This document shows, piece after piece, positions 687 through 32,908 of a stretch of 32,908 bases of DNA. Where the stretch lies: NCBI GenBank assembly GCA_009602725.1, contig WELB01000300.1:1-32908 (forward strand). Reading direction: 5' to 3'. The position numbers were made by a program, and so were the translations under genes. The DNA is from Spirogloea muscicola (lineage: Eukaryota; Streptophyta; Zygnematophyceae; Spirogloeales; Spirogloeaceae). A model generated the notes under the pieces. That model did no database searches, was not told the DNA's origin, and saw only the letters and a program-made list of their open reading frames with translations. The number at the start of each line of letters is the position of its first letter. The stretch's first letter is position 1.

Positions 687-2997
687 TCACGGCGGAACCC
701 AACCTCCATGTAGAAGGCGCTCCCGGAACTCGGTGCCTTTAGCTACAACGTAAAACGCTGCAGGCGATGACCACCTCTACTTTAAGAATGAAAATTCTAC
801 AATATGCTTCGCAAGCTGGTTAACGTCCTTGACGAACATGCACAGACAACCAGTGGAGTAGATTGCAAGACCTTGCACCATGAGTTGCCCCATGCTACGA
901 ATTTAGGCTGGATACAGGTTTGCACATCGTGTGCAGCACAGCGCCATACTTCTGAAGCAGGGTGGAAAGAGCATCTTGAGGCTTAGAATCAGAGACTTAC
1001 CTGGTATGCCAGCAACAACGTGGTCATCCTTTCCTAATGTGGCGCGCAGTGTTGCCTTCAGATCGACCTTCACCCATTGACGCTTTCCTCTTTCTGTACC
1101 AGTCCAGTTCTATGTATTGTTAGTGGCGAGGTCTAGGACTGAGTCAACCATGGTTGACACGCGCCTGGCATTGACTGGAATATCTGGATAGTCAACAGCC
1201 TGACCGACCTGACCAGTCCACAGCTTCATGCTTTTCATGAATCTCTCTGGAAATCGTCTGTCCCCCTCCTTGATCCTCCATCAATGAGAGCACTGTGGCC
1301 TCCTCTGAGAATGCAGGCACTGCATTAGACTGCAAACAATTGAGACAGAGTATCTGAGAAAGCGAGGCACTGCATGTGAGGAGCATCAGACAATAGCACT
1401 TTAATGTGTTCCATTGCCAAGATGGTCTTGCCTTCAGCGTCAGAGTATGTTGCATAGACCTACCTGGTAGTAGAGCTCAATTGTAGACAGTCTGTACTCC
1501 TTTCCTTCATCCCAGGGGAGTGGTGGAGACTCCTCACCAAACACATGAGGGCTGGAGTCAAGGTGTCCTTGACTTGACATGATTGGGTCTAAGGAGCAAC
1601 AGAGTGCTGATTGAGCATCTTTGCTAAGAAAGAAAACCACTTCTTTGCGATGTGCTGACATTCTTTTCCTTCGCAAGACAGCCTCTCTTGACTGCAAGCC
1701 AGTTGCATGCCACCTACAGTGCAAGTGACAAGGGGCACGCAAGAGGATACGATCTCCAGGTGAGCAGCAAGTGTGTCCTGCTCATTGACATCCTCTAAGA
1801 TATCTGTTGCCATGACAGCCCCGTATACCAGCACCACAGGCCAATGCAAGTTGCCAGCTGTGTCCACCCAAGGCTTCTTTCCCAGCGTGTGCTGCTCGAA
1901 GTTGGACTGGCCCAAGCGAATCCCCCGCTGATTGAGAGCCGCCGCTAGATCCTGGCGAGTCAAAAGAAAAGGCAGATGCCTCCTATATGGTTACGGGCAT
2001 GGCAATACGTCTGGCACCAGCTTCCTCTCCTACACTGCAGCCTGATCGCCTGGTTCTTCAGCTGGAACATTTCAGTCTGATTCTTGCAAGCAAACCCCTG
2101 CATGCACCACAAAATCCGCCTCGCGCGATGCCCCTTGCGTCATACGCCACCTGCTCACCTCTGCCTCCGCACGGCGGGCAGCTGCGTGTTCTGCGGTCTT
2201 GGTAGCCTCGGCCAGCTTGTTGAGGACCTGCCTCTGGACGTTCTTGATGTAGTCATTGGAGGGGTCCCGAGCTATGCCCTCCTGGGCGCACTGCAATGCT
2301 GTCGCCAGCGAGGACGCAGTCCCCAGCAGCAGGCCAGCCTTGGCAGCTCGGGCATATGCCTGCCAGCCACGGCATGCTGAATGCCTCACACGGTGCGTGT
2401 GTCATGAGGAGAGAGGGTGCTCGGCCAACAAGGGTTCTGGAGGACTCATGCCTCTCATTCCGTGTTTCTCACGCGGACCACAGTACTCTGCTAACAAGGA
2501 CGCGGCATAGGCGTCTAGGCGGCCTGAGGGTGGGCTACTGAACACAAAATTCAGAAGGGCAGATGGGCACCCCGAGCAAGATACCTTGATGTTGGCGGTG
2601 TTCAGTCTGGCGGCCTCTTGGGCGTCGCGCAGAGCCCTGCCGAAGTTCTTGCGCAGGATGTGGACGTGGGCGCGGTTGGCGCGATAGGTGGAGTTGGCTT
2701 GCGCGCTGCTGCTCCTTTGCTCGATGGCCTGCGTGTAGTAGCTGATGGCCTCCGGGTACCAGGCTGGGCCCTTGCCGAGCGCAATATTGCCATGCTCCTG
2801 GAGAAGGCGCGGCACGGCGAGAGGCGTGTGAGGTGGGGGTTGGAGGGAGCGGAGAGGGGGAGGGGTGGCGGCGGGCGGTGGGGGGCAACCTTGAGGAGCT
2901 CCGCGGTCTCCTCGGGCGTCTCGTCGGCCAGGCTGCGGAGCGCGAGGACGTCGGGCGCGTCGGAGTTCGGCGGCAGGTCGTCCAGGAGCAGCGCCAT
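687..2997 (-). CDS. TTC4: TTC4/Cns1-type tetratricopeptide co-chaperone
   Basis: Family members are TPR adaptors that bind Hsp90 and Hsp70 in the cytosol or nucleus. The start is the ATG at 2995-2997, opening MALLLDDLPPNSDAPDVLAL. Exons read: 2890-2997; 2585-2797 with the first TPRs (EHGNIALGKGP then YPEAISYYTQAI); 2159-2359 with the last TPR and a charged helix; 1751-1951 with the start of the C-terminal wheel domain (KKPWVDTAGNLHWPVVLVYG); an exon ending at 1464 with FGEESPPLPWDEGKEY; 1001-1093 with WVKVDLKATLRATLG; and 687-757, ending FYVVAKGTEFRERLLHGG then WVPP and stop. The last two exons join in phase as GIPAFYVVAKG. The junction into the exon ending at 1464 is unresolved, because no AG acceptor seen restores the frame cleanly. 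Length and domain order fit the family. The gene is the first from the telomere and shares its promoter region with the divergent RAB3GAP1-like gene. Confidence 0.92.
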
Positions 2998-3195
2998 GGG
3001 GTGCTCGGGGGCGGGANCGCGCGCCCCCTGGAGGTGCTCCCTCCTCGCGGCGCGCCCTCTTGGGCGCCCCCCCCCCCAGCTCCCCTCCACCTCCGCCCGG
3101 CTTCCGCCCGGCCCGGGTGGAGGCTGCGACGCACAATGTGGCCTTCCCGACGTGCTGACCGCCCCCGCTCGCCCGGCTGCCTCGCCCGGCTCCAG
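2998..3195. promoter_or_regulatory. Head-to-head promoter region between TTC4 and RAB3GAP1-like gene
   Basis: Only about 198 bases separate the two divergent start codons. The stretch is far more GC-rich than either gene body, with long C runs around 3069-3077 and CCGCCC-like blocks, and no TATA box was seen. One undetermined base lies at 3017. It must carry both 5' UTRs and a bidirectional promoter, unless an upstream start is used for either gene. Confidence 0.55.
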
Positions 3196-6100
3196 ATGGA
3201 TTCGTCTGACGAGGAGGCCTATCAGAGGCTGTCGAGCGTCTGCGCCGTCCCGCCTGCTGGGCTCGTGCGCCGACTTGCTTCCGCGATCAGGTGGCCTCCC
3301 AAAGCCCCCTTCCTGTTGGCTCAGCTGTGCATGCCACAGACGCTGTAGCCCATCCTCTCCCATCCTGACGCTGCCTCTTCCGCACAACACACACCTGCTG
3401 CGCCCCATGCCTCTGTGGAGGGGCCTGTATACCCAGGCCAAGTGATTGGACGGGCACAACTGGTGCAGTGTGGCAAGGACGGTGGCCAGCATGCAGGACT
3501 TGGGCCTGCTCAAGCAAGAGGCTGCAGATGCGGTGAGGAGCATACGCTGGTCAGGTTTGGTCTCCTCCCTGGCTGCCCTCCGCTCCCGCTCGACCACGGC
3601 GGCAAGAAGTGAGGACAAGGCATCCCACCGGTCAGCACTTCTACGGGCTGTCTTCAGAAATGGAGGTGGGTGCTCGTCTTCTTCCGGTCCATCAAGGGCC
3701 TCAAGGAGCCGAGATCGCTGGCCAAAGGGGCGGCATCGCCATCCTGCTGTTGGCCTGTGGTTATCTTGCTCCTGCCTGCCAGCACCTCACAGTCTGCTCC
3801 CCTCTTCTCGTGTGCAGACACAGCTTGCACAGCACCTCAAGAGCACTCCAACGGTGCTGAGAAGGAGTTGACGAAGTGTGACTTGCTCCGAGAGATCCAT
3901 GCAGCACCTTTGAACAGCTTTGTTGCTCAACTAGCAGAGGCGATGGGAGGCATCAGCAGTGAGCAGGAGATGGCCAGCTTGTGGTTGGCGGTCGTTGCAG
4001 AGGTATGGCAGAGCCGAATGTAGTCTTTCTTTGGAGCAAGGGGTGGTGAGGCAGGTCGCAGGACTCGTCACCTGAGGCCATGCCACGTTTCTGATGTATT
4101 CAGTTGAGGAGGCACTGGGTCGATGGACGCCCCATTCCAGGTGTGGAGGTGGAAGAAGACCCTGACCTCAGGAGTTGCCTTCTCCACCAGCAGCTGCAGC
4201 TGATCAACTGCTGTATTGCAAGGAGGAAGCGAAGGGCCACTTCTCTTGCCGCTCTGCAGAAACTAGATCTGGATGACAGCCAAAGCCACAGCCACAGCCA
4301 CAGCCACAGCCACAGCCACAATAAGAGCTCAGCAGGCAAATACCTGATGGAAGCAGACAGGATGTTTGGCCCTCTGAAAGAAACACGTACTCCTGTTGCA
4401 AATTGGTTTCTTCACTTTTGGTTTCTTCAGTTGTGCTCGCGCTTGTCGTTGCTGTAGTCTTTGAAGGAATCAATAGTAGGAATCACATGGTTGCAAAGGT
4501 AGTGCGTGGGCTGATGCTATGTTCTCTAGCGGGTACCTCATTGGGAAGCTTATCACTTCGTTTACTGCTGTGCTCCTCTTTGATGACAAATGTGCATATG
4601 TAGATGCCAACAATCAAGTGGGTGTACCAGAGGAGGTGCTCTATGCTCGCCTTCCAGATGACCGATTGATGAGGAGACTAGCTGTTCAGAAGCCTGTTCC
4701 ACATTTGCGACTTCTGGAGACTGGCGAGCAGTGCTATGCCCCAGTTTGCCAGGTCATTCAGATCTGTTGCCAAACTCATCCTTCAGAGGCTCTTGTTGGC
4801 TTCAGGTCTGGTTGTTGTAGAAGCAGCTGCTGAAGGGATTGCTGCATAGCTGTCAATTCTCCTCCAAGACTTTGTTCATTACAGCCTGCAAGTACTGAAA
4901 CATCCTCTTGACAGGACTTGCCAGTACTCACGGAAGTACTGATCAGGGAGAATGAGGAGCTCGTTCTGCGCACAGGCAGGTAGGAGAGAGAAACTGCCAA
5001 GCCCCCACTACATGTTGCATGCCTTTGGAGGTCACCAGTAACATTTTGGCAATGCCTATGTGTGACACTATTCTCTCACTAGACGAGGTTTGTGTGTCCG
5101 TCAGTGTAGGGGCTGGATGTCAGCAGCTGTTTGGAGATATGCAAGCATTCAAGGTGAGGCGCAAAAGATGCTGATGGCCACTGCTCAGTGGATGTCATAT
5201 CTGTTGCGGTCACGGTGCCTTTGACATGCATGCTGAGCTTGTCGTCTGGACTGCTTGTGTTGGGTGCTGCTCACACCAGGCCAGTCATGTACTCCTGTCT
5301 GTGGTTGAGCTGTATCTCAGGCTGCTAATCCAGGGTGCATCCTTGAGGACTTTGTGAGGTGGTACTCGCCTTTGGACTGGCGAGACACCCCTAGAAGCCC
5401 TGGAGTTATGGTGGCTGAGAGCAGTGCTTTGGATGTGTCCTGTGCAATCAAGGTCCATGGCTATCTAAGTGCACGTATGCAATCAGAAGGTTTGTACTTG
5501 AGACAGTCCTTGTCTGTGCTGTCTTTCTGAGATTCTCGCAATAGCAACAAGTGACAGGTTGGGCAATACATTCGGGTTGCTTGACCTGTCACTTTATTGC
5601 TGTGCAACTTCTCTGGTGTTTGGGTCTTCTGGCTGCAAACAGCGAGAGACCTTCGGGGCGTAACAAGAGGTGGGTGATCCCCTCACATCTATATAATCTC
5701 GCTGATCAACTATCTCAGATGCAGACCTTCTAGCAGACTCACAATGGCGCTAGCAGCAACATGGAAACGCCACCTGGCTTTATAGCAGGCTACTTAGTGC
5801 ATCTTTGGTGTCGTCTTTCGCTCTTGCACACTGCTACTTCTTGCTTTTCAGGCAACCTCTGGCAGGAGCTCTGGGCAACTGCCAAGGCAATCCCGGCTGC
5901 AAGACAACCTCCCCTCTTTGATGAGGAGCTTTCTGGGTGAGTCTGCAGTTGGCATTCCTGCCACCTGTACATCTTTGGCTTGGCGGCTGGCAGGCACATG
6001 GACTGGCAAGTCTCACCTGTCATGTGCCAGTGAGGACTCACAGTGTCCTGCAATTGTCCCCTGCAGAGAGAGTACTTTGGATTCCCTTGAGAAGATTGCC

Positions 6101-8499: not shown

Positions 8500-11400
8500 T
8501 CAACTGCTCTTCACCACCGCTGCCAGCACCATTGCTGCCTTGACTGCAACCTCCTCGCTCTTCTCCACAGCCCTTGCCCCCTCCACCGCCTCCCGCACCT
8601 GGTGCAGGGCTTCCTCTGCTCCCGCGCCTGCCCCAACACCGCGCAGGACTTCCACACCTGCCTGCAAGCACTCTAATGCGCCTAAACGCACCTGCCATGC
8701 CATCAATCCTGCTGCTTAGAGAGTGCACACCTTGTGCTCCCCAAGCAATGCACCAACGCACTGCTGCCTTACTCTCACTCCTCAAGGTACCTAGCCCTTG
8801 CTAATCTGGTGGCATACTTGCCAAACAGGCTTACCTGCGAATACTTTGGCTCCTCCAAGCAACGCAGAACTGATGGAAGTAGGAGTTCAACCCAGCCCCG
8901 ATTGCGCTCCCGCTCCTCGAGCGTCAACTGCGCAGGCAGCCAGAGGAATCGATAAGACGCCAATGCTTGGAAACATGTAACCAGACACAGACAGTGATAT
9001 GATTCCAGCATTGTGCAGCTCTTACGACTCCACAAAGAGAAACTCTACGTAGTGTCTGCTAACAGACCGACACAGCACGTACAACAGAATCTGCGTCGCC
9101 GTGGCTTGTGGAACCAGGCTGCAGCTTCTTCAGAAAGGTTTTCGCCAGTCCAAGCGCAACCAAGCGATCTGGAAACGCTCAGAAAGAGAGATTGTCCACT
9201 TGCATGTCTCTTCTAAGGAGTGCCGTGCAGTGCCAAGGGCAGATGGTGCGCAGCAATGGTGGCATTCTTTGTCAACAAGTGCCTGCGCACCTGGCACTGG
9301 TAGTGCAAAGGTGCAAACATTCCCAACAACGTGCCTGGGTGGTAGGAGTAGCACAATCTGTGGACTTCTGTCTCAAACTCACCGTTCCAAGTGAGGTTTC
9401 CGTCGAGGGCATGAGCAATACCCCCAGTGACCTCAGCACCTTTTGCAGCAACTGTTGCTGGAGAGGCTGCACTCCAAGCTGCAGAGAGGCATGCAAGAGC
9501 TGGGCCGGGAGGCAAGGCCGCATCTGCTGCGTCTCCCTCGTCTGCATCAAAGGTAAACTAGGAGCAGATAAGCAAACGAGGCACGCTCATGACAATGACG
9601 TTAGTCAACCTGCCTGGCGAGCAACGCATTCGGCAAAGCAAGTGGCGCGGAGCAGAAAGAACGCATCGAGACCAACCAACTTCTCCAGCACTTGCACGAC
9701 TCGGTTCTGCTTGGTAGCACGAAGGCAGAAGCAGGCTGTGGACTTCCTCGTACATGTCCACATCGTGGAAGGCGCTGAGTACCTGGGATGATGCCCAGAA
9801 CCTCCAACAGATTAGTGAGAGAAAGTGGTATTGTGCAGGATACAAGAACAGGGAAATGGAATGCTGTGCACCTTCTCCAGACAAGCTAGAGCTGCAAGGC
9901 GGAAGGCCTTCTTTCTCCGCTTGCAGGAGTCCACAAGAACATTCACGATACTCCTTGGATCATGCTGTGACCGGCCTCCAGTCACAAGGGCCACGTGACA
10001 GGTCTTGCTGACGGCTGCAACAGCCTCCAAGATCGACTCCTTCCCCTAAACGGGCCACAGTGGATGCGCAGTTGGGAGATGCACAATGTACTGACGACCC
10101 TGACCACAACGTGCAACAGGGAATGTTGTCATTGACTCTCATGCCTGCGATGATAAAGCACCTGAGTGCCCAAGATAGTACCTCCCACAACCGACCAGGC
10201 AGCTCGTCAACCAATCGGGCAACGATTGAACATGCGTAATGCCCCTCCAAGGTGCTGAGGCCAGACTCCGCCATCCCCTTGATGGCAAGCGCGCTCTGCA
10301 TCCAGGGGGATACTTGTAAGCAAGCGATACGAAGACAACGACGTGCTATGTTTGTCCAGGTCACATGGTGCATCATTCTGTGAGATGTTGATTTACATAT
10401 CATGACAGACCTGCCGCTTGCATGTCCACAAAGAAGACGAGAGCGCGTCCAAGACTAGTGACACAATCTCGGCAGCGTACAGCTGCAGTGCTGCAGTCTC
10501 AGTTCCGCTGTTCTCATCCCAAACTTCAGACAACTGTTGTTGGATCTCCTTCTCCTCGTCATAGCGAGCAAAATACGCAAGCGGCAGGAAATCTGACAGC
10601 TGGGCCTGAAGCGACGAGGATGCTTTGCGGGAAAGCTCACGCAGGAGCAGGCCACTGGCTGCCCTCGAGTCTTTGTCACCGGGATCAGAGTACAGGGCCA
10701 CAGCGTCCTGCAACAGCTTCGTCAACAAGGTGCCTGGTGCACAGTTGGCCACTTCCGCACATGCAGAGGCGAATGCTCGGCGGGCCGTGGGACTGCGCTC
10801 CCCAACGGTTGCCTGCTGCAGGGCCCGTATCAGCGGCCCCGAGTAAGGCCTCACCGCTGTTGCCCCTAGACGTTGCACCAGAAGACCCACAACCTTTCCC
10901 AGTCCTACCCTGAGGCAGGGAGGCAGGAGCTTGCACCCATAAGCACACTCAAGATGAGCCCAACAAGGGACAAGTGCAGGTTCTAGCATGCAGCTGCTAT
11001 TTACGCATCAGAATCTCAGACAAGTCAGATGGCTGGCAAGCAGCCAGCTGGTGATGCGAGCCAGCCGCCTTTTCACGTTGTTCGCAGATTACCTGGTGTT
11101 AAGTCCGACTGCGGAGCGTGCAAGGCTGACCAGCCGCGGCACAAGAGCAGCCAGAGAGGCATCATCGACTTGGAAGACACACGTGTCAAGGGCATCCCAT
11201 GCTGGGGACACGCGCGACATGCCCACACGCACATCCTCCAGCTTCTCGTGGGATAGCCCCAGGGTTTCAGTGTGCATCTGACGCATCCGATCCAATATGG
11301 CCTCAGTATGGTCAATGCGTGGTAAACAAGAGCCATGCAGGCAGTAGGCAAGCACAGAAAGGGGGACCGTTGATGGAGAGTGGCAAGTCCAACCTCAGCA

Positions 11401-14400
11401 TAATTCAAGCGTTGGTCTTCCATGCTGGACAGGCTCTCAAGCAGCGTTGCAACAAGGTCTGGCACGTGCGGCCGCACTGCCGGCCCTGCTCCCTGCCAAG
11501 CCGACACGTCAAGCAGCACAGAAGAGCTTATGAGCAGGTGAGCATGAATCTTGACAAAGTGACGAGGCTGCAGGAAGCCGCTGGTGGACCTTGACAATCT
11601 TGGTGATGGCCTTGAGGCAGAGGCGCTGCACGTCCGCAACAGCGCTGCCAAGCCCCTGGGAGAGTAGGAAGGGTAGCACAATGGCCACAGCTCGGTCCAC
11701 ATCTGCTCGGGGGGATGTCAGTGCCGGATCACACAGCCGCACTGACAAACTGCTGACGGACGTCGCCAGCCGCTGCCCAGCAAGTCTGACGCTTTCCTTG
11801 ATGTCGTCCATCGTGCGGATTGCCATCAGCCACAATCTCTCCAAGAATTTGCCCACCTGCTCCATGTGCCGACAGGCCACCATAAGTTGCCACTCCGAGC
11901 AAGTAGCTAAGCTGACATTTTCTTGCTATAGCGAAGGGCACTCTCACCTCATCAAAGCGCCGTGAGGCAAGCAGGTCAGACAGGGCAAGGCATGACGCCT
12001 CGCGGGAACGCCACAGACGAGATCCAGCACTGGTCAACAGATCCTCCAGGATTGCGTCCAGGTGCTTGTCCACAGTGGTCTTCGGGTCCACCACCAGGGC
12101 ACGCCAGATGTGGGTCATCGCATCCTGGATGCCTCGATTGGGATCATACTGGTAGCGCAGCAGCTTGGGCAAAAGTGTTGCCAAGTGGGGCTCCAGTGCT
12201 GCTCCAGCTTGCTTGGCAATCTTGGCAAACCCAAATGCAGCACCTCTGCTTGAATTCAGGGATGACTGCGGGGGAAAGAAAGCGAGTCAGTAAGTTGACC
12301 CCCAGTGATGCAGCAACGGCCTTACTCGTCACGTGCTCCATAGCGGGACGCTTCATAAGCAGCATGCTGAGTGCCGCGGATGAGTGCTCCACATGCAGAC
12401 ACACACCTGGTAATTCTCAAGGTCCATGAAGCGGTAGATAAGGTCGGGCTGGCCCATCTCGGTAGCCAGCGTGCACAATTCCTTGTATGTGGTCAACTTC
12501 CCGCCACCTGGTGCCTCTCCCAAAGCACCCTCCTGGAATACTTCCGTGTCCTCCGTCAACTGCATGGCATCGCGCGGCGGATCAGATGCTTATGCAAGTG
12601 GCCTCTTACTAGACAGGTAAGCGCGCAACGTCTGGACGGGAAGCAAGAAGAGCCCGAAGGAGCTGCACTGAACCTTGACAGCCCGCTTCTTCCGGTTCGC
12701 TCCAGACAGGGTGCCGACAAGAGCAGCCACCAGCTGCTTGCGGGTGGCATCGTCCCCGAGCTCGTGCACGAGGCTCATGCCGCGCGAAGCCATGTCTTGC
12801 GTCAGGGCATTGCTGTCTCCCAGCAGCTGTAGAAGCGACTCCTGCACTTTCACATGATCGGTTACGGCCGGGCCACGGTGCGCTCAGATGCCAACAAGCC
12901 CATCCTCCCTGCTTCATTGTTGCTCAAAGGCTAGTGATTCCAGTCAATGAAGCTCGCCCCGGAGCAACCTGGGCCTCAGGAAGGATGCGTTGGAGCTGCT
13001 GCTGGCGGCCACAGTACGTGAGGAGGGACACGAGCCACACAGAGCCAGCACACCGCTCCTCGCTGCGCTCACTGATGAGAAGCTCCTTGAAGAGCTTCTC
13101 TGTGATCTTAGCTCTCACCCCGCGCTCCTCATCCTCATTGTCGGTGTCCATGGTAGATGCTTCCCCAGGGTCCCCGTTGGGGTTGGGCTTGAAGGAGGTT
13201 GTCAGGGACGTGAAGCTGGTCCGCAGAATCACGTCTGCACTGATCGGCAGGTTGCCCCAGATGTACGCCAATGACTCCCCTGCTGCAAAAAGCACGTCCT
13301 CTGCCTGCACTCCAGCAGCACCGCTGTGTGTCAGCTGTGACTGTCAACCCCACACCACTTGCACGCCCTTCAATTCACCTAAGCAATATCCTACACGTGC
13401 TCACAGCACCTCCGACGAAATGCGCACACAGGGGCATTGAATCACCTTGGAGCTGGCGAGCGAGAAGGCAGCCCTCGCGGCAGCATCCAAGAGCTTGGGC
13501 CACGGGGAGCCAAAGCCCAAGTGGCCAAGAGCAATGGCAGACTTCTGCACAGCCTTGGCATCAGCACTTTGGAGCAATGCTTCCATTCGCTCGACAAGAG
13601 AGCTCAAGGACGACACGCCCGCCTCCGCTTCATCTGCTGCCTGATCTCCATCCACTCGACAACTCGAAGTGACTGGCCCAAGGCCTCCCGGAGGCACCGG
13701 GAGAGGGCCGCGCAGACCGATGTGTCCAAGACTTTCAGCCGCCGCGCCAGCAATTTGGGGATCTGCATCCGCCAAGAGGCTGCAAAGCACTGCCACAATG
13801 CGTGCCTGCGGCTCCCGTGGCACCTGCAAGTGAGTGGACGGATAAATTTCAGCATTGCTCTCTGACTCACCCATGCCCGGCCAGCCTTGCTTGTCACAGA
13901 CCTACCTCCGGGGTGCCGGTTGCTGCCTGCGCCAGTACATAGCCTGTGGCGCATACGCTGCCATGGAGCTTCTCGTGATGAACAGGGCCCCCCAAGGACC
14001 TGACAGAATTCGGAGGAGGGGAGAGGGTAGCGTGGAGCTCTTGCAGGAGCCCCTGGGCTTCTTGTGAGCTGAGAGCGGAGGTGACAATGCCCATGATCTT
14101 TGCCATGATCACGCGCACGTTGCTGCTGATGGACGCAACGTGCTTGCTCAACCACCACAAACGGTCGCGGTACGCCAAGGCCAATCTCTGCAGCATGCCA
14201 GCCAGCGCGCTTGACGACTGTGACGCCCCTCCTCAATGCGTCGTGGTGCACTGGTGCATGAGTTTGAGCAGAAGTCTCTGAGATGCATGCCGTTGAGAGA
14301 TTACTTGCCTGTGGGTCCAACGAGGCTAACGCCAAGATACCCTCCGCAGCTTCTATCTGCAGCTCGGCAGTGCCACTGGTGGCAAAGGCATGCTCCAGAA

Positions 14401-22953: not shown

Positions 22954-25032
22954 TCAGAACGCCTCCCTGTAGCAGTGAAATGTCTGGTGCGCATCAGAGG
23001 CCTCCGCACAAGCCTCCCTGCCAATGGAGCCAACACCCGTCAGCTGGTTGCAGAGGACTTCGAAGCACTTTTTGCAAGGGTGACTAGCAGTGTGCAGAGC
23101 GCCAGCTGACAGGCTTGACAGCTGACAGCTTGGACCCTGATACAACGACAGTGCGTGGAGTGGGTGTTTGGTAAGAGGGACTTACTTGACACTCTCAGTG
23201 ACAGCCAGAGCTCCACAGCAGCAGACGGTGATGGCAGGGCGCAAAGGCAACTCGGCCTTGAGCTGCCTGAAGATCTTCTTCCAGTCTGGTCGGGCAAAGA
23301 AGGTGCGTGCCCGGAGCCCTGTGTACGCAGACGGGATGTCCGTGTAGGCGCCTCGGACCTCTGCTTGGTCCAGTTGGGCGAGCTGCCGGTCCAAGCCCAT
23401 GCTGGGCTCGGTGACAAACAACGCCGCCTCAAAGTGCAGGTTGGGCTCGGCAGCGGCGCGCTCTTCCAGCTCGCGCAAGACCTCCGTGAACCACTCAAAC
23501 TGGTTCTGGGTCCGCGCCACCCAGTAGAAGTAGATGGAGCGCTGCGTGGGCTGCAGGCGGGCTGACGCGGTGAGAGCAGACGCCCCCAACACTGACGCAG
23601 AGTTGCTGTCAGCATGTTGGGAGGCGTGCGAGGTCAGCCTGTCCTTGAGATCCTCGTTCGCCTTGTCGCGCGCAATCTGGTAGAGCAGGTCCCTCAGGAT
23701 GGACGACGCAGGGGTCACACCGATGCCGCTGGCGACCAGGACGAGGACGTCCTCGCCCGCGAGGGTCTGGTGCACCTCGCCAAACGGCCCGTTGATGAAG
23801 ACGGTGGGGAACGGCGTGCAGGGGTTGCGGGAGTCCTCCCCGTAGAAGCTCGGGGTGAAGAGCTCGTAGACCTTGGAAGTCCAGGGGCCCACTACGCGGA
23901 TGTTGATGGTCAGGTACTCCTCATCGGGCGCGCTCGAGATGGTGAAGGGGTGCGGAGTCGAGCCAATCTGCTTGACGCACAGCGTGATGTACTGGCCGGA
24001 CTTGAACTGGAAGTTGGGCGGCTTCTCCAGCGCCAGCTTGAGCACCTTGCCAGGGAGGTGCTGCGCTGCCATGACCTTCCAGCCGACCAGCGAGGCGTTC
24101 TTGGCCACGATCCAGTTGAGGAGGTAGAGCACCCCGGGGCCGAGGTAGAACCAGTGGAAATAGGGGACCTGAACCAGCCTGGCAGAGCCATGCACAAAGA
24201 CGAGCACGTAGATGGGCAGGAAGAGGTCATGCGTATACTGGAAAGTCCGGAAGAATCGCTGGCGGGCCTGTGGGATCATGGCAAAGGCAGCCATGGGGAC
24301 GCTGAATATGACGAGCAGGAGGCCAGAGAAGCCCGTGACGGTCGTCAGGCCCCAGAAGGAGAAGAAGGACACCAGCTCGTCCGAGTACAAAAAGGTCTCG
24401 CGGAAGTAGCAGTTGATCTCAAACTGTGGCTGCGTGCAGATGTTGTAGAAGTTGAACATGTGTCCCACAGTGTGGAGGCCGAAGAAGAAGAAGGCATTGT
24501 AACCGATCACTTGGTGTAGCAGCAAGGCGTTGTCGATGGGGAAGATGAAGCGAACGGGTGTGTCCCGCAGGTACGTCCACATGTGATTGCAGACCATGAG
24601 CAGGAGGAGGGACAGATTGTACATGGAGCACTGCGCAGCGCCACGGGTTGTGGCGACGCCATAACCCGCGATGAGGCGCAGGCCGCCACGTTCCATCTCA
24701 AAAGCATAGGTGTACCACCGCTCTGCGTGACGAGGAGAAACGGGGGGGGGCCCCCCATGAGTGCACGAACTTGTTTGATCCATTGGGGTATTGGATTGCT
24801 CGGGCAGGCGCAAGAAATGTCCGCACGTGCGACTTGACGACGCCACAGTGGTGGCCATCCAGAGACTTCGCCAACAAGCAAGAGCTGCCTATTCGAGGAT
24901 GGGAGGGGGCAGGGAAAAGCGGGCTTACCAACGAAGAGGCCAATCTCCACGAGGAAATACAGGGTGAGCCATATCCAGAGGAGGCGATTCTCGACGATGC
25001 TGTCTATGAAGTGGTACCACAGCTTGCTGAGC
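22954..25032 (-). other. NADPH oxidase (ferric reductase-type) core of the DUOX-like gene
   Basis: The first helix is in exon 24929-25032 (NRLLWIWLTLYFLVEIGLF) and joins in phase as LFVERWYTYAFE. The 1,537-base exon 23186-24722 holds the rest. Haem histidines: HQVIGYNAFFFFGLH plus GH in one helix, and THDLFLPIYVLVFVHG (H-x12-H) in the other. FAD site: HPFTISSAP. NADPH site: NGPFGEVHQ, ASGIGVTPASSIL, YFYWVARTQNQFEWF and the CCG of VCCCGALAVTESV. The last 64-base exon gives EACAEASDAHQTFHCYREAF and stop, the aromatic-ending C-terminus of NOX enzymes. Confidence 0.95.
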
Positions 25033-28000
25033 CTGCGCATGAGGGGCGCGAGAGTGAGGGTCAGCCGGCGACAATGTGGGCTCACCCGGCTCCAGTCACC
25101 GCACCAATCAAAGCAGTGCTCGCTTTTCACACACACTAGGAAGGGCCTGCAAGAGGAGCCTAAGAAGGCCCCGTTGCCTTGCTCATGCACCTGGAGCGAG
25201 GCCGCGCGACCTCGGCAGCCTGCACCTCCTCTGCTTGTGCCATATCCTCCTCCAGGACACCTGCCCTGCCCCGTCCTATGCTCGGGTACGATTGCAGCTG
25301 ATGCACAGCCACCAGCACAAGGACCGACATACACCGTCAGTCACGTTGGTGAATGGCCCGAAGCACGCCTTGCTCACACCACCCGCTTTACAGTGGGACC
25401 TCAGACTGTGGTGCCGATCGAGCACCTGCGGGCCCTTGGTGAAGTCCCGGCGGCGCTGAACAATCAGTGTCGACCCTGGTCGAATGTTGTACTCTGCCAC
25501 TATGTCCCCGTCCCGGAGCTCCCTGAGGGGGTTCTGCTCCATGGTGAGCACCAGATCCTCGGCGGGGTCCAGGCCAAGCGTCTCGCTGACGCTGTGCTTG
25601 ACTTGCGCAATGGTGTCCATGGCATCAGCCACGAGATCGAGCGTGCCCACGGCCTTGTTCACATTGTCCTTCACCACCTGCAGAGTCACGATGCGAGTTA
25701 CAGACAAGAAGGAGCTGGCTACGCCCCACACCCTCTTTGCCGCCACCTTGAGGAGGACGAGGTTTCCAAGGACACCCTGCATGCTGACTGCGCACCTGCA
25801 GGAGGACTGTTCACCAGATGTCCTGCTCTAGCACAGACACCGTGATGCCAGGACGACTCGTGAGGGCTTTCGGTGTCACCAGAGGACAGGGCAACAGGTC
25901 GGAGTGCAACCACCCTCACCAGATTGATTTCGCCCTCGTAGACCGAGGCCAGGGGGCCGGAGCTGGCAACCAAGGGGCCCGAGTGCGAGACAATGCGCGT
26001 GGCATCATGGCGTGCAAACTCCTCCACTGTCAGGCCCTTCTTGGCGGAGTAGTCTGGCACAGCGGTGCCAGGCGGGGCCACGGCTTGCATGAACGAGTGC
26101 ATCTGCTGCTTCCGGAGCCCAGACACCACAGTTTCGCCTGCCAGCCACGCAGTCGTCAGGATCCACCACACACAAAGAGCTCCGAGGAGGGGAGCCTGGA
26201 TCAGGCATCCCTGCAAGCGACGTCCCCGTCCAGAGGCAAGCCAGAAGCTGGGCATCAGCCATCCCAGGCAATGGGCCGGTGCAGGGCCGTTCCCGGCGGG
26301 TGAGCGCAGTCTCACCACAGGAGAAGCGCGCGAAGATCATTTGGGCCTTTGCGAACGCGTCCTTGGCATAGAAGAGGCGGAAGAACCAGACCACGTCCTG
26401 CGCCACGATGTAGCCGGGCGGCAGCTTCTGCGTGCTCTCCAGCTTGAGGGCCAGCTCAAAGGTGGACCGTATGAAGAACGAGTTGGGGGATCTCCGGAAG
26501 GCGTCCGCAAGCTCCTGCCGGCCGATCACGGCTTCCAAGGGGTCATCCACCACCGTGGGCGCGAGGCCTGCGCCGGTGTCGGGCTCCTCACGGATGCCCA
26601 ACAGGCCGGAGAAGCGAATGCGTAGCGACCCTGAGAGGCCTGTGCAGCAAGGCGTGACCAAGGCGCGGGCACGAGGACGTCAGAGGAGCGTGCCACAGCT
26701 TGTCCTGAGTCGGAAGAGCAGAAGCGATGAGCATGCAGGGAGGGGCTCTGTGCGTCTGCCAGCAGCGCACACCTGGAGCACCCTCGCGAGTGTCCACCAG
26801 GCGCTTGATGATGTGACGCGATATGCCGTCGACCTCCTCCCTCCGCTTATCAGCGGTCTTGAGGCGCCCGCGCGCGATGGCAGAGCCAGCAACATCCGCT
26901 GTACTGTTGAGCAGGGGCGCATCAAGTCCCACAGCCTCACGGGCTCCGCTCACTCCCCTTGCCATGTCCTCGAACAGCTCTCGACACCGGTCAGTAGTGA
27001 TGAGGACATCGTGCCCCACGCGCACCTGGACATCGCGGGCTCGGCGACCATGAGCCAGACGCGCTTTCTCTCTCTCTCCGCAGGCGCACGTCCCGTGCAA
27101 GAATGGAGCAGGCTGGCAGGCTGGAGGCTCACCTCGAGCCAGAGCAGCTGGGCGGCGGCGTCGAGGGAGATGGCGTCGACGAGCTGCAGGGGGATGGTGC
27201 GCTCCACGTACAGCACCTTCTCGCCCTCAAAGGCCGGGGGCTTCTTGGCGAGGACGGCGAGGGCTGGGAACGCGTTGCCGGTGGTCTCGCAGACCAGGTT
27301 CCGGAGCTGGAGATACCTGACGGCATTCAGACCTGCAGGGCTCTTGAGCTCGGAGCAGTCCATGATGGTATGCCCCCGAGGCTCAAGCACCATCCACTTG
27401 GCCTCCTCCCTCAGGTCGGCGTTCTCGATGTCTGCAGCGAGCCGACAGAGTAGTGCCGCGGTCGGCCACCGGGCAGACAGGCGACCACAGAGGGAGCAAG
27501 CAGCCTCGGGAGGGAGGCGGCACCGACTTTCCCGCCGCTGGGCTCCTCGCCGTGACAAGGTTATCAGCAACGGCGGCACTCACGAGCGATGGGTGCCGTA
27601 CGGAAGCCGAGAACCAGGAAGCAGCTGGAGGCTCGCGTCCCCCGCTCCCCAAAGACAATCTCCTCGTCTCCGCCCTTCAAAGGGCTCGCAGCTGCAGCAG
27701 GGGAGAGGGGGCGCGGCTGCTGCTGCTTCAAGGTCCGAATGTGAGCAGGTCTCGGGGCGTGGCCTCGGCAACCGGTCACGACGGCAGACGCTGTTGTTCC
27801 TGAGGACCAGAGCCTCGCCCTCGAGCGGGTAGCAAGACCAGCAGCGTGAGCCACTCTCACCTCGCTGTGGGTTCTCGCCAGAGAGCTGGGCCCGCGGCAT
27901 GCTCTCGAGGATCTTGGATGGGTGATGCCTGCGCCACGGATTGCAGGCAAAGAAGGACCGCTTGGCTCCCCCCAGCTTGCTGGCAGTCAGCAGCCAGTAG

Positions 28001-31000
28001 GCTGCCGTGAGCAGCAGGGTGCACACAGAGGTCCCCACAAGCGTCCACAAGATGGGGTGCGTGTCGTCGGGGTAGTAGTCATGGTGCTGCAACCAGCCAC
28101 GCCCCCACCGCCTGGCACGTCAGGGGAGCTGAGACACCCGCTCGCGCAGGGTGTCGCTGCTCACGCTTCATGCCTCGGGGAGTTTGTGTCGCACTGGTCA
28201 CTCACCCCAGGCGCCGTGCAGTTGGCAAAGTCAAACTGGCTCAGCTGGAACGGCTGCGGGCAGTACTTGGGTTCATCCGAGGCCTGGAACAGGTTCTCTT
28301 GAAGCGACTCTCCAAACATGTCATAAATGTCCACCCTCCTGAAGTTGGCCGCGCCCAGGGAAAGGGGGGGGGGGGCTTGCTCAGGAATGAGAGCAGCCTC
28401 AGGCCAGCGAGCTGGCAGATGCCAATCGAGGGGCAGAGCAGCCGGATGGTGCCAGAAGCTGGCCCCTCAAAGAGGCAGACGCGAGGAAGCGAGGCGAGCT
28501 GTCTCACTTGAGGATGTGGGACAGCTTGGCTGCCTTTATGTCGGCAATCTCTTCCTCGGAGAAGAGGCGGTTCAACCGGTTCTCGTACCACCAGCGGTCC
28601 GCCTCCCTCAAGCTCGTGAAGACGTTGAGCAGGATCGCTCTGCACACATGCACCAGCACTCAGCGACCGGGGCACCTTTGACGACCCCACCCACTCGAGC
28701 GCGTGGACGAGATGCAGACCCTCCTTGAAGCAAGGAGGAGGAGGACATCGAGGGTGGTCAGAGTGCACGTACTTGAACAGGCCGCCGGGCCCGTTGCGCG
28801 TGGTCTCCAGGATGCCGCCGACCCAGATGTCAATGTTGTTGATGTCGTTGTTGTAGAGCTCCTTGAGCTTACGAGCCAGGCGGTCCTTCGTATGAGTGCC
28901 GTCGTCGTCAGTGCCCTCCTGGCCGGCGACGATCTCCTCAAAGGTCGTGTACTCGGGCAGGCCGTACTCCCTCCGAGCAGTCTGCGCACGAGGTTCTCAT
29001 GGAGGTCGTCAGCCCCACTGACTGCCCAGCACGCTGCCCGAGCAACGGTGCTGCCAGCGGGGCCTTGTCTGCTCCGGGGCCTTGTCTGATCAAGGCCTGC
29101 GACGGGATCGGCGTCCCAATCCCCCTGTGGGTGCAACAGCAGCGATATCTCACCTGGAAGTCTGGCAAGCCAGTCTCCCGCCCGCGCTGGATGTTGATGG
29201 CCTGCGTCATGCAATGCCCGGGCGCTGGGCTCGTCAGTCCTCGCCGCGTGCTCAGTGCAGGACGCGGTCCAGCGGGCCGCCGTCCCGCAACGGCAGGTCC
29301 CTCCAGGCTGCGATCGCCGGCTGCCCAGCGAGCCCTCGGCTCCACATGCAGGCAGGGAGCCCAGCTGTTGCCAAGGGCTTTCTAGAGCGACGACAGGACT
29401 GGGCATGCAGCAGCCTACCATGAGGTCGCGGCGATCGAACTCGGGTGGACCGAAGACAAAGCCACGGAGGTCCTCGGTGATGATGTTGTCCTCGCGCTCG
29501 CACCGCTGCGAAGCCAGGCCCATGAAGACCTCCTCGATGGTGACGTGCGTGAGCACGGTGGGAGAGTTGAAGTAGCTGTTGCACGTGCGGATGTTGTGTT
29601 TGCCCGAGAGGACCGTGTGCGGGTCCGCCTGCAGCCTCGGTGACAGACCCACGCCGTCAGTCCGCCTGTGAGGCCCACAGGCCCTCCTGTCCCAGGTGGC
29701 CAGCATGCCAGAGAGATACAGGAGGGCGCCGCGTCGTGCGACCGACCTTTGGATTCATGTCGCGGAATTTGCAGGTCTTGTCCCGGAGAAACACCCCGGG
29801 GGTCACCAGCGTGTGTCCAAACCTCATCGCGGCACTCTGCGGGGGCAGGATCGGGGTCAGCCAGGCTCCCCGTGCTCGTCTGAGTCGAGCAGGTGTGAAC
29901 TCAGGAGCCAAGGCAAGCTGCCCGCTCTGCGGAGGCCCCAGGCGACAGGGCCGCCCGGGCCAGGGAAGGGGCCGACGTTGCACCTGGAACTCGACGGGGA
30001 CCGAAGGGAAGGTTTTGGGCTTGTGCCCTTCGTAGGCTGGAATAGTCACGACGGGGCCAAGCCACGCGGGCAGCCACTCGTCCATCAGGATGTGCTGCGA
30101 GCGGCGGACGACAGGCGACGCGCTTGGCTTGTCAGCATCCGGTGCACGGCAGCCAGCCCCCCGCCAGCGACTGCAAGTGGCGCCGAGGCGCAGGCGCATC
30201 CTGGCGGGCCGGTCAGCAACCTGGTAGGTGGCAACCACGAACTGGCGGGCTCGGTGGAACAGCTGCTCGTCGGTCCAAGTGGGGTGCTGCAGCTTCAGCT
30301 GCTCGCAGTACCAGTTGTGATGGCGGAACCACAGCACCTGGAAGGACAGCTGTACAAGCCAGGCACAGGACGGTCCGAAGGTCAGTGCTGCGTCCTGTCA
30401 CGGGCATCGGCACAGGGAGAGCCTGTGTATGCCGCCGGCTTTTTGTGCTGCCCGCCGAAGCGGCTGAGAGCACCCGTCAACCGCAGCCGAGCCTTCCAAC
30501 AATGCCAGCGCTCACCAGGTAAGGGTTCTCCTCCCCACGGGGGTTGCCGATCCCTGCCGCCACACCAGAGAGACGGAGAGAGCGAGAGAGGAAGGCATCA
30601 GGCACATGAAGCCTCCGCCTGTCGAGCGAGTCCTGCCAGCATCCCGTGCAGCAGCGAGGAGCGGGGCTGCCGAGGCTCGGACCGCAGCACCCAGCCGGAG
30701 CATGCAGGACCGCAAACAGCATCGTGCGACTGTGTCGGGGCGACAGAGCTGTGGAGCACGAGAAAGGAGGGTGGGGCACGGACTGAAGAGGCGGGAGGCT
30801 GGCTTGTAGTGGTGGTCGAGGGGCAGCGTCGGGTTGAAAATCGGCAGTCCCACTTCGTTGTGGGCGGGATAGCCAGGACTGCAGCCGAGAGCGCGACCGG
30901 AGATGAACGTGTGAGTCGAGAAGTTGCATCCGTGCATGCACACCTCCCCCGGCATCGGCAGGAGGAGAGGCGCAATCAAGTCGCGCACGACCAACCCCCC

Positions 31001-32908
31001 CGCCCCAGCCGCAAGAGAGCAGACCGCTCTCCAGGAACTAGGGTCGGATGGGCTGCTCACCGCTCGGGGTTCTCGAGCAGCTTGCCGTCCTTGAAGCTCC
31101 GCAGGGCGTCGCACCAAGCTTTGGCGGTTCCGTACATGAGCCCGCCGTCAATCCACGGCGTCACCTGGCCACCACTCACGGCACTCCTGCCCATCAGGAT
31201 GGGCTGCTTGCTCTCGGCCCGCAGCTCCCCGCCAGAGCGTGTGTCCCCCGGGCGGGCGGGAAGAGCAGGCGAGCAGGCAGTCCGGCGTGAGGGGGGTTCG
31301 GCGGCAGGGCCGCGCGGCGGGCGAACGACCGTGCACGCCCTCGTGGGCGTCAGTCAGCGTGTGACGCTCGCTGCGCTGATTGGGAGGTCTGCGCAAGGAG
31401 CCGCGTCCCGGAGTCATTGGGGGCAATGAGGGGCACCTCGTTGAGGATCTCGCGGGGGGCGCTTGGCCCATCGCCAGTCCTGGCGATGTATCGGATGCGG
31501 GGCAGAGGGATCTCCACTTTGCCCTGGGCAGAGGTGCACAGCGACGGACGACTGAGGGCAGCGGCCAGGCGCAGCTGCGACGCCCGCAGCGGGGCATCTG
31601 CCAGAGCGGGAGCCGGTCGAGGGCCGGAGCGGAACACGTGGCATAGCATCAAGCCCTCGCAAGGCAGCTGCAGGACCGTGCCCTTCTCGGCATGTGAGGC
31701 AGTGGTGGGAGTGGCAGGTCGGCGGGGCCGACAGCCGGCTGAGGGACCGGGTGGCCGGGCAGTACCGTGCAGTTGGGGTCATAGAGGTCGTCGCACTGGG
31801 GGATGGGGATGTTGAAATACTCTGACCACACGACACGCGGGACATCAGCCATGCATGCTCCGGGCGAGGCGGCAAGCCGGGAGCGCCGGGCAGAACATTC
31901 AGAACACCGTCGATATGCGGCCCCGGCGGGAAGAGGCACATGGGGTCGTGGAGTTTAGGCGGGAAACGGTCACGCAATGTGCAGGGCCGGCGGACGCCGG
32001 CGCGGGCGGCCGCCCACTTGCAAGAGCGGGTCGTAGGAGAGCTCACCCAAGGGGCACGCCGGGACCTGCGAGTCGATGATCTCCTCCACGACCTGCTGCC
32101 CGAAGAAGACCATGAGCGCGGTGCGGTTGCGGTACGACCCGAGCCTGCACAAGCCAGGCGGGGGGCGCGTCAACGCCAGGGCAGCGGGGAAGTGCAGGCA
32201 GGCACGCGGCGCCGCTCTCCTGCCCCGCTCGCAGGCTCCATGCCGGCGCACTGCCGGTCACCGAGCCATGGCGAGAGCCTCGCGGGAGCTGGGGGGGCCG
32301 ACGGGCGCGGCGTGGGCACCGGTGGGTGGGCGGCGAGTGAGGGGGAGGGGAGGCGAGCTGCCTGCCCGTGGCGTGGCGTGGCGTGGCGTGGCGGAGGAGG
32401 GGCGTTACCCGGTGTTGCCGGCCAGCAGCTCCCTGGACAGCGTGCGGGGGTTGGGCCGGTCCCACCCGCCCGGCTCTCGCACCCCGTCCCTGTACCCGTA
32501 CGGCAGCCTCCTCGACAGCTGGCCCTCTGCACGGGAGGGGGGGGGGAGCGGCGACGCGGACGGCGCCTCAGGAGCGGCCCGGCGTGGAGCTCGACGGGAC
32601 GACGCGGGGCCGCGGGGCCGAGCCCGGCGCGCGGGGTGGGGCACGGGGCGCAGGTGACCGCCACGGCAAGCGGCCGAGCAGAGCGCGCCGCTGCCGGCAG
32701 AGAGGCGTGGCGCGAGAGGGCTCGACCCTGCGCAAGGCACACCTGACGCGGTCCGGAGCAGCAGAGGTCCGGGAGCGGCGAGGGGAGAGGGAAGGGTGAC
32801 TGACCTGTGATGCCCCAGTCCGGGTGAGCCAAGCTGTGGTAGTACCCTGCGGGAGGGGCGGAGGGGAGGGGCGTCAGGCACAGCGGCGGGCGGGCGGGCG
32901 GGCAGCCG
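22954..32908 (-). CDS. DUOX: DUOX-like dual oxidase: peroxidase domain, TM helix, PH-like, EF-hand-like, ubiquitin-like and NADPH oxidase modules (5' partial)
   Basis: Predicted to pass electrons from NADPH through FAD and two haems across a membrane to oxygen, making superoxide or H2O2; the peroxidase-homology domain would face outside. Exons, 5' to 3': 32805-32846, 32409-32526, 32047-32144, 31766-31821, 31437-31523, 31061-31164, 30784-30878, 30516-30553, 30221-30337, 29984-30094, 29747-29836, 29419-29628, 29154-29201, 28773-28981, 28508-28639, 28206-28338 (peroxidase-homology, about 560 residues); 27861-28086 (TM helix ILWTLVGTSVCTLLLTAAYW); 27584-27691 and 27133-27431 (PH-like); 26782-27025; 26316-26630 and 25920-26137 (EF-hand-like); 25400-25677 (ubiquitin-like); 24929-25032 and 23186-24722 (NOX core); 22954-23017 (C-terminus TFHCYREAF). 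Nearly all junctions are GT-AG and phase-consistent, giving about 1,692 residues. The first visible exon reads YYHSLAHPDWGIT, equivalent to the start of the animal DUOX peroxidase domain, so signal peptide and first exon(s) lie beyond the window. Weakest donors: exons 30784-30878 and 25400-25677. Confidence 0.94.
25445..25934 (-). other. Ubiquitin-like domain inserted in the DUOX-like protein
   Basis: The domain is split by one intron: the first strand EINL ends exon 25920-26137, and the remainder opens exon 25400-25677 with VVKDNVNKAVGTLDLV. It continues with DTIAQVKHSV (ubiquitin DTIENVKAKI), GLDPAEDLVL (GIPPDQQRLI), ELRDGDIVAEYNIRPGSTL (QLEDGRTLSDYNIQKESTL) and IVQRRR (LVLRLR). Length is about 80 residues with ubiquitin spacing. 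There is no C-terminal Gly-Gly; the chain runs on into DFTKGPQ and then the first NOX helix, so this is an integral, non-conjugated domain. It would sit in the cytosol between the EF-hand-like region and the membrane core. Confidence 0.8.
25990..26560 (-). other. Degenerate EF-hand-like region of the DUOX-like gene
   Basis: Exons 26316-26630 and 25920-26137 occupy the place of the EF-hand pair in animal DUOX. The helices are still alignable: RQELADAF, SFFIRSTFELALKL, DVVWFFRLFY, AFAKAQMIFARFS, LRKQQMHSFMQAV and GLTVEEFARHD. The first loop reads LESTQKLPPGYIVAQD and the second FSCGETVVSG. Neither has the D-x-D/N-x-D pattern at the calcium-coordinating positions. Calcium activation of the classical type is therefore not expected. 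Confidence 0.7.
28206..32846 (-). other. Peroxidase-homology domain of the DUOX-like gene
   Basis: Sixteen exons encode an animal-type haem peroxidase fold. Landmarks: NPRTLSRELLAGNTGLGSYR; RTALMVFFGQQVVEEI, where the distal site should be; QCDDLYDPNCT; VTPWIDGGLMYGTAKAWCDA (matching the WLDGSAIYG motif of DUOX); VLWFRHHNWYCEQL with the proximal haem-ligand His (codon about 30317-30319); TYQHILMDEWLPAWLG; LLASQRCEREDN-like region ending in DNIITEDLRGFVFGP; AINIQRGRETGLPDF (the IQRGRD motif); and LFKAILLNVFTSLREADRWW. The distal His of classical peroxidases aligns with Glu in GQQVVEEI, as it is also lost in vertebrate DUOX, so classical peroxidase chemistry is doubtful. Confidence 0.9.
32368..32393. 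repeat. Short GTGGC pentamer tandem repeat in an intron
   Basis: About five tandem copies of GTGGC lie in the intron between exons 32047-32144 and 32409-32526 of the DUOX-like gene. A simple-sequence repeat; no function is implied. Confidence 0.8.
32884..32903. repeat. GGGC tandem repeat at the window edge
   Basis: A run of GGGC/CGGG units lies in the 5'-most visible intron (minus strand) of the DUOX-like gene, just upstream of the exon 32805-32846 acceptor. Simple-sequence repeat. Confidence 0.75.

Follow-up and report, generated by a model that had tools for sequence, protein, structure and literature searches.

A ubiquitin-like domain within a dual-oxidase-type gene in the genome assembly of the alga Spirogloea muscicola

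The window analyzed here is a stretch of 32,908 nucleotides, positions 1 to 32,908 of contig WELB01000300.1 (C300), from the assembly GCA_009602725.1 of the alga Spirogloea muscicola; the assembly searched comprises 153 Mb in 471 contigs, and the other contigs are given similar short names. Its minus strand carries a gene with the architecture of a dual oxidase (DUOX), in which an 81-residue ubiquitin-like (Ubl) domain follows a degenerate EF-hand-like region and precedes the first NOX helix. By sequence comparison, the Ubl is related to ubiquitin beyond chance, and it is as constrained as the catalytic parts of the protein. By analogy with human DUOX1, we propose, with a probability of about 0.5, that the Ubl could be an integral, non-conjugatable docking module that gates electron transfer through protein contact and not directly through calcium.

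A ubiquitin-like domain in a dual-oxidase-type reading frame

On the minus strand of the window, 17 exons with GT-AG borders can be joined from position 30349 to a stop codon at 22954, forming one open frame of 4356 nt that codes for 1451 residues plus the stop. Along this frame Pfam recognizes, in order, An_peroxidase (residues 2-312, E=9.5e-82), ubiquitin (residues 806-866, E=0.038, below the cut-off), Ferric_reduct (residues 955-1093, E=4e-7), FAD_binding_8 (residues 1133-1234, E=1.2e-15) and NAD_binding_6 (residues 1243-1435, E=1.4e-23). Among proteins of solved structure, a PDB sequence search matches the frame best to DUOX1, in the entries 7d3e (E=1.1e-155) and 6wxr (E=1.4e-154), which we take to be human and mouse, and the alignment covers both the peroxidase part and the NOX core. 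The peroxidase domain has the motif LWFRHHNWYC at about position 30320, where the DUOX1 counterpart is LWFRYHN; unlike that of human DUOX1, it could bind haem. In the NOX core, the four histidines that bind haem line up with those of DUOX1 (residue numbers from PMC7794343). Since one spliced frame contains all of these families and aligns with DUOX1, the sequence is read as a single dual-oxidase-type enzyme and not as two adjoining genes. The presence of peroxidase, Ubl and NOX families in that frame supports the claim of the first-pass annotation that a Ubl domain is built into a dual oxidase.

The Ubl is assembled across one phase-0 splice, from the exon end GAAATCAATCTG/gtgagg (25920) to ctctgcag/GTGGTGAAG (25677), which gives EINL/VVKDN...IVQRRR. 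The 81 residues are thus encoded by 25931-25920 plus 25677-25447, and the exon extends to 25400. The junction 25677/25920 and the coordinates proposed for it in the first-pass annotation are correct in the genomic sequence, and the four ubiquitin-like segments that it had listed (DTIAQVKHSV, GLDPAEDLVL, EYNIRPGSTL and IVQRRR) are all present. The Ubl exon has 278 nt, which is no multiple of three, so that the NOX core would be thrown out of frame if this exon were skipped, and the 242-nt intron has stop codons in all three frames. The assembly contains three copies of the gene.

The ubiquitin family PF00240 matches the Ubl in the three copies, with a best E of 1.4e-4 and an E of about 2e-4 for the window copy; the profile search that had been advised as a check therefore returned the expected family, although below the cut-off, and the curated Pfam threshold places the Ubl outside PF00240. 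Ubiquitin is the sole Pfam family up to E=10 for the window copy, and each of the other two copies gave one further family at chance level (E 0.11 and 0.2). PB1, RA and RBD were not among the Pfam families found for the Ubl, and hence are unsupported. A ubiquitin hidden Markov model (HMM) was built from eight sequences, seven of nine viral ubiquitins and one from the alga. The three Ubl copies scored 19.9-20.5 bits on it (19.9 for the window copy), and none of 20,000 shuffled sequences, 18,697 of which gave a score, reached the Ubl (best, 11.5 bits). As controls, 119 other 87-amino acid fragments of the same protein scored at most 1.6 bits, and 322 open reading frames of the window at most 5.3 bits.

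Up to E=10, the Ubl matched 287 distinct sequences of the PDB. The best 60 of these are all ubiquitin, its fusions or designed variants; they include two listed as Affilin, presumably the scaffold derived from ubiquitin, and one 79-residue chain listed as Uba1. Unmodified single ubiquitins were found at E values around 0.002-0.008; where E is much lower, the chain contains several ubiquitin repeats whose scores add up. A search of the algal genome itself gave 23 matches to the Ubl up to E=1, namely the three DUOX copies and 20 others (E 0.08-0.14). The five of these 20 that were read are all ubiquitin: four polyubiquitin units (C160) and a ubiquitin-ribosomal fusion (C10). The nine viral ubiquitins are 26-32% identical to the Ubl, and no viral relative of the Ubl exon was found among 19 pattern stretches. 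We conclude from these comparisons that the relationship of the Ubl to ubiquitin is beyond chance.

When the Ubl is aligned with the alga's own ubiquitin, the corresponding motifs (ubiquitin/Ubl) are TITL/TLDL, DTIDNVK/DTIAQVK, GIPPD/GLDPA, EDG/RDG, YNI/YNI and STL/STL. As judged by eye in this alignment, hydrophobic residues occupy 14/14 of the positions that we take to form the ubiquitin core (1, 3, 5, 13, 15, 17, 23, 26, 30, 43, 50, 56, 61 and 67), with Ala at 17. K11 and K27 are kept as K, and L8 is replaced by N, I44 by L, K48 by R and K63 by P; V70 corresponds to Q when the gap that the program introduced is omitted from the last strand. Relative to ubiquitin, the Ubl has insertions of four residues before the K48 position and of three residues after K11. 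The lack of a C-terminal Gly-Gly, already pointed out in the first-pass annotation, is confirmed: the domain runs on as IVQRRRDFTK..., is internal, and has no free C-terminus. Given the missing Gly-Gly, the change of K48 to R and of K63 to P, and the N and Q in place of L8 and V70, the Ubl is predicted to be unable to undergo conjugation and not to be a plain ubiquitin mimic.

The two further DUOX loci, on C314 and C68, are colinear with that of C300 over many kilobases, with 92.5% and 93.9% DNA identity, respectively, in the main alignments. The exons of the three pairs differ at 130, 133 and 172 of 4356 sites without any gap column, and the introns at 243/3011, 223/3006 and 301/3005 sites with 100, 68 and 112 gap columns. 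Over the three copies, the donor GT is present at 48/48 splice sites and the acceptor AG at 50/51. The deviating acceptor is that of exon 12 in the C314 copy (C314:84000-93900), which has GG instead of AG, and this copy may be mis-spliced or decaying. The splice dinucleotides of the Ubl exon are kept in 3/3 copies, and the exon has no indels.

The ratio of nonsynonymous to synonymous differences (pN/pS) was pooled over the three pairs of copies, which are not independent and provide small counts. The Ubl had 4.0 nonsynonymous and 18.0 synonymous differences (pN/pS 0.07), the peroxidase part 19 and 77 (about 0.07), and the NOX core 40 and 132 (about 0.09). The corresponding values were 28 and 37 (about 0.26) for the EF-like region, 18.2 and 32.8 (about 0.19) for the part of loop 0 that precedes it, and 4 and 6 (about 0.2) for the 16-residue linker that follows the Ubl. 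By these counts, the Ubl is under the same degree of amino-acid constraint as the catalytic parts.

Structure prediction had been suggested as a further check. A ubiquitin-type model was obtained with AlphaFold when the exon was accompanied by nine viral ubiquitin rows (predicted local distance difference test, pLDDT, 75.3; predicted template modelling score, pTM, 0.63), a partly circular result given that the rows are ubiquitins; the exon alone folded poorly. The model with ubiquitin rows has a strand (8-14), a helix (23-34), two strands (42-46 and 49-53), a short helix (60-63) and a last strand (70-75). With this model Foldseek returned 443 matches up to E=10 (best E=2.6e-3; 0/443 at ≤0.001), the best 50 of which bear the titles ubiquitin, ISG15, RUB1 or complexes with them, a few being assigned to the ubiquitin type by our own presumption and not by title. 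The VIA Z was ≤7.9, and a Z under 8 may mean merely a common arrangement. Since the alignment rows are themselves ubiquitins, the model indicates compatibility with a beta-grasp fold only.

The EF-hand-like region and a possible gating role for the Ubl

No EF-hand family was found in Pfam up to E=10, either with the first EF-like exon alone or with the 1451-amino acid frame, and a PROSITE-type EF-loop pattern was found in none of the three copies. The EF ligands of human DUOX1 are D828, D830, N832 and E839 in one hand and D864, D866, N868 and E875 in the other, and their mutation was reported to abolish calcium activation (PMC7794343). In the PDB alignment, D828 faces a Leu of the window protein. 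Since neither an EF-hand family nor an EF loop was detected, and D828 faces Leu, we infer that the canonical calcium switch has been lost from the window protein. Judged by its sequence, the gene has the DUOX architecture yet departs from the calcium-regulated type. The idea, put forward in the first-pass annotation, that the Ubl could replace calcium as a regulatory input is strengthened, because neither EF-hand is detectable. A transmembrane-like stretch at 26150-26200 (LLGALCVWWILTTAWLAG) was rejected as a coding element; it is intron, since the EF-like frame is regained with the acceptor tggcag at 26137.

In the PDB alignment, the interval from the EF-like region to helix M1 comprises query residues 688-918 and DUOX1 residues 829-1048. 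The spacing of these anchors is hence 230 versus 219 residues, so that the Ubl is found where the animal enzyme has its linker. The dehydrogenase domain of human DUOX1 is clasped by the EF module when this is loaded with calcium, and it has a groove in which the linker to preM1 is bound (PMC7794343). Our model builds on the observed presence, position and constraint of the Ubl and on the lack of recognizable EF loops. The Ubl, which stands where the animal DUOX linker lies after the calcium module, ∼16 residues before the first NOX helices, would dock on the enzyme's own dehydrogenase domain or on a partner. Once docked, it would hold the dehydrogenase domain against the membrane core, and binding of a partner could release that domain or displace the Ubl. 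Electron transfer would then be gated through protein-protein contact rather than directly through calcium.

Several points weigh against this model. The docking step is argued by analogy with human DUOX1 alone, and the gene is known here from the genomic sequence of one genome (three loci). The window copy scored 21.6 and 21.2 bits with PF00240 in two runs, less than the curated cut-off of 25.4, and the exon alone, which lacks EINL, gave an AlphaFold model with a long helical N-terminus and no Ubl fold (pLDDT 64.5, pTM 0.31). As to calcium, the EF-loop pattern scan was run without a positive control, the part of the alignment that holds D828 is weak (-2.5 and 0.9 bits for the two DUOX1 entries), and matches beyond about E=0.1 are mostly removed by the HMMER filters. 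A cryptic EF hand is therefore possible, and so is a residual effect of calcium. Tentatively, and with less confidence, the docking model can be extended to a history in which a DUOX-DUOXA lineage exists in algal relatives of land plants, the calcium switch decayed, and a captured Ubl took over as a protein-protein switch.

The alternative with the most in its favor, although we consider it unlikely, is that the Ubl is an address tag for ubiquitin-binding, proteasomal or Cdc48-type partners. By recruiting them it would lead to sorting, clustering or degradation of the oxidase and so control its amount or place, not its catalysis. Recruitment of ubiquitin-binding or proteasomal partners had also been raised in the first-pass annotation. 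Integral Ubls of shuttle proteins act as such partner-recruiting tags, and both the exclusive Pfam match of the window copy to ubiquitin and the conservative change of I44 to L would suit this role. However, the Ile44-type patch is only partly kept, with N and Q at the L8 and V70 positions, K48 and K63 are absent, and the Ubl is not terminal but flanked on both sides by regulatory parts of the oxidase. A gene for the proteasome adaptor ECM29 is nearby, yet adjacency gives no evidence that the two interact.

The near-equal spacing between the EF-like region and the NOX core in the window protein and DUOX1 would also be expected if the Ubl were a folded spacer of fitting length that replaced the animal-type linker and provided no regulatory input. 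A mere spacer should drift, and the constraint on the Ubl is that of the catalytic domains, about three times that on the EF-like region (small counts), which makes this improbable. It is very hard to maintain that the ubiquitin likeness is accidental or that the exon lies outside the mRNA: the single-domain matches are weak (E of about 1e-4 in Pfam, 0.002-0.008 for most single ubiquitins), the exon alone folded poorly and the gene model is genomic sequence only, but 0/20,000 shuffles attain the Ubl score, the three copies keep the exon with its splice dinucleotides, without indels and at a pN/pS of 0.07, skipping of 278 nt breaks the frame, and the 242-nt intron is stopped in three frames.

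Genomic neighbors, other NOX genes and the host

The coordinates of the gene and its neighbors are compiled in Table 1. Loop 0 on its own gave no PDB sequence match up to E=10. At the three loci (3/3), a gene for the DUOX maturation factor DUOXA (PF10204) is located head-to-head with DUOX, and the six matches found, two per locus, are all over the cut-off. The head-to-head DUOX-DUOXA pair is an arrangement known from vertebrates. DUOXA beside DUOX was unexpected in a green alga. From its sequence, the TPR-type frame is possibly a co-chaperone gene.

Table 1. Features of the DUOX-type gene and of its neighbors (window positions, unless a contig is named)
Feature	Coordinates	Strand	Basis or remark
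Ubl domain, VVKDN...IVQRRR, 77/81 residues	25447..25677	-	Pfam, PDB, genome and HMM searches
EINL, first Ubl strand, end of preceding exon	25920..25931	-	phase-0 splice to 25677
Ubl exon, 278 nt, phase 0 in, phase 2 out	25400..25677	-	splice model
Exon: second EF-hand-like stretch up to EINL; ligands not recognizable	25920..26137	-	position by eye
Exon: first EF-hand-like stretch; neither Pfam EF-hand nor PROSITE-type loop	26316..26630	-	Pfam, pattern, DUOX1 alignment
Exon: cytosolic loop 0, place of animal PH-like domain	26773..27025	-	by order only
Exon: cytosolic loop 0, place of animal PH-like domain	27133..27431	-	by order only
Exon with hydrophobic helix M0, after peroxidase domain	27861..28086	-	by eye and DUOX1 alignment
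Haem-peroxidase-type ectodomain, eight exons	28206..30349	-	Pfam, splice model
Ectodomain exons 1-4 of eight	30349-30221, 30094-29984, 29836-29747, 29628-29419	-	
Ectodomain exons 5-8 of eight	29201-29154, 28981-28773, 28639-28508, 28338-28206	-	
Upstream peroxidase-domain match; the model covers exons from 30349 on, peroxidase exons continue upstream	31069..31173	-	
Exon: preM1 and M1 helix of NOX core, 16 residues past Ubl	24929..25032	-	DUOX1 alignment
Exon: NOX transmembrane helices, FAD and NADPH domains	23186..24722	-	Pfam, DUOX1 alignment
Last exon, ...FHCYREAF and stop	22954..23017	-	splice model
DUOXA gene	C300:36136-36968 (past window end); C314:79455-80304; C68:642700-643554	head-to-head with DUOX	PF10204
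ECM29 HEAT-repeat frames	window 10393-11717 (-); C314:105244-106030; C68:668531-669319		proteasome adaptor
TPR-type frame	window 2402-3286	-	TPR_2 E=5e-4, below cut-off

Three further NOX-type FAD domains were found, on C197, C355 and C271, and those contigs gave no peroxidase or Ubl match. The C197 and C355 genes form a pair whose three longest alignments show 84-88% likeness; that of C271 is a distinct gene. No EF-loop pattern was found at these three loci, where the stretches may stop short of the EF hands. The RBOH N-terminal family PF08414 had no match in the genome, and the controls likewise gave none.

The assembly has 68 matches to light-harvesting proteins, and the locus that was read is of the green LHCII type; this fits the guess of the first-pass annotation that the DNA comes from an alga. 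The best PDB row for that locus is 9vfj_2 (LHCI-2, 620 residues), followed by 7xqp, 8htu and 8c29, which we take to be moss and seed-plant entries, with chains presumably of the Chlamydomonas type scoring somewhat lower. This ranking suggests a streptophyte. The genome of S. muscicola is described as triplicated (PMC7994812), and DUOX, DUOXA and ECM29 are each present in threes. Not every gene follows this pattern: the other NOX loci are a pair and a distinct gene, and likeness among the three LHCII loci is no more than 83-87% in the longest alignments.

A contaminating eukaryote as the source of the DUOX locus would be in line with a published survey whose available text gives RBOH alone for Streptophyta (PMC9421330), and with a G+C content of 0.60-0.65 at the DUOX loci versus 0.54-0.58 at the LHCII and other NOX loci read. 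We regard this origin as highly improbable: C68 is a contig of 677 kb, colinearity of the three loci extends across many kilobases, and ECM29 was matched only on the DUOX contigs C300, C314 and C68 (9/9 matches), although a missing match elsewhere is not proof of absence, so that contamination would require an alga without ECM29, or one whose own copy was missed.

Comparison with known systems

Among the matches listed in a search of open PubMed Central titles and abstracts, there was no NOX or DUOX with a ubiquitin-like domain and no green-algal DUOX. The portions of PMC9524095, PMC3591440 and PMC1940245 that are available describe DUOX in animals and mention no Ubl in a NOX. In the accessible text of the survey cited above (PMC9421330), the species of Streptophyta, which are land plants, have only RBOHs and the Chlorophyta only unclassified NOX-like sequences; the set comprises 14 Streptophyta and 2 Chlorophyta sequences, and algae of the Spirogloea kind may lie outside this sampling. 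The stem "ubiquitin" occurs once in that text, in the title of a reference on Nox4. The same survey proposes direct EF-hand calcium activation as the founding NOX control (PMC9421330). As read from its sequence, the window protein is a DUOX by architecture but differs from the family when judged by its EF hands.

The peroxidase-type ectodomain, M0, loop 0 and NOX core of the window protein are colinear with those of DUOX1, and, as for animal DUOX1 and DUOX2, a DUOXA partner gene adjoins it. In contrast to the animal enzymes, it comes from a green alga, has no recognizable EF calcium loops, and carries a Ubl in place of the linker from the EF module to preM1. With ubiquitin and integral Ubls, such as those of Parkin, IKKbeta/TBK1 and the USP family, it shares the core hydrophobic positions and the DTI..VK, DG, YNI and STL motifs; it differs from them in being internal to a membrane oxidase, in lacking Gly-Gly, in its two insertions and in a Pfam score below the cut-off. 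The NOX core is common to plant RBOH and NOX5, which have upstream EF-hand regulation but, to our knowledge, neither a peroxidase domain nor a Ubl.

If a streptophyte alga has DUOX together with DUOXA, the enzyme is more widely distributed than was known, and a Ubl that replaces the linker beside the calcium module would add a further means of gating a NOX. If our model is true, such a switch could put peroxide production directly under ubiquitin or Ubl-binding machinery, a type of NOX control that we do not know from animals, fungi or plants. A putative beta-grasp domain as regulator of a NOX would have a parallel in the PB1 domains of p67phox and p40phox of the NOX2 system; these are located on separate cytosolic subunits, whereas the Ubl of the window protein, which has no PB1 match, is built into the oxidase itself.

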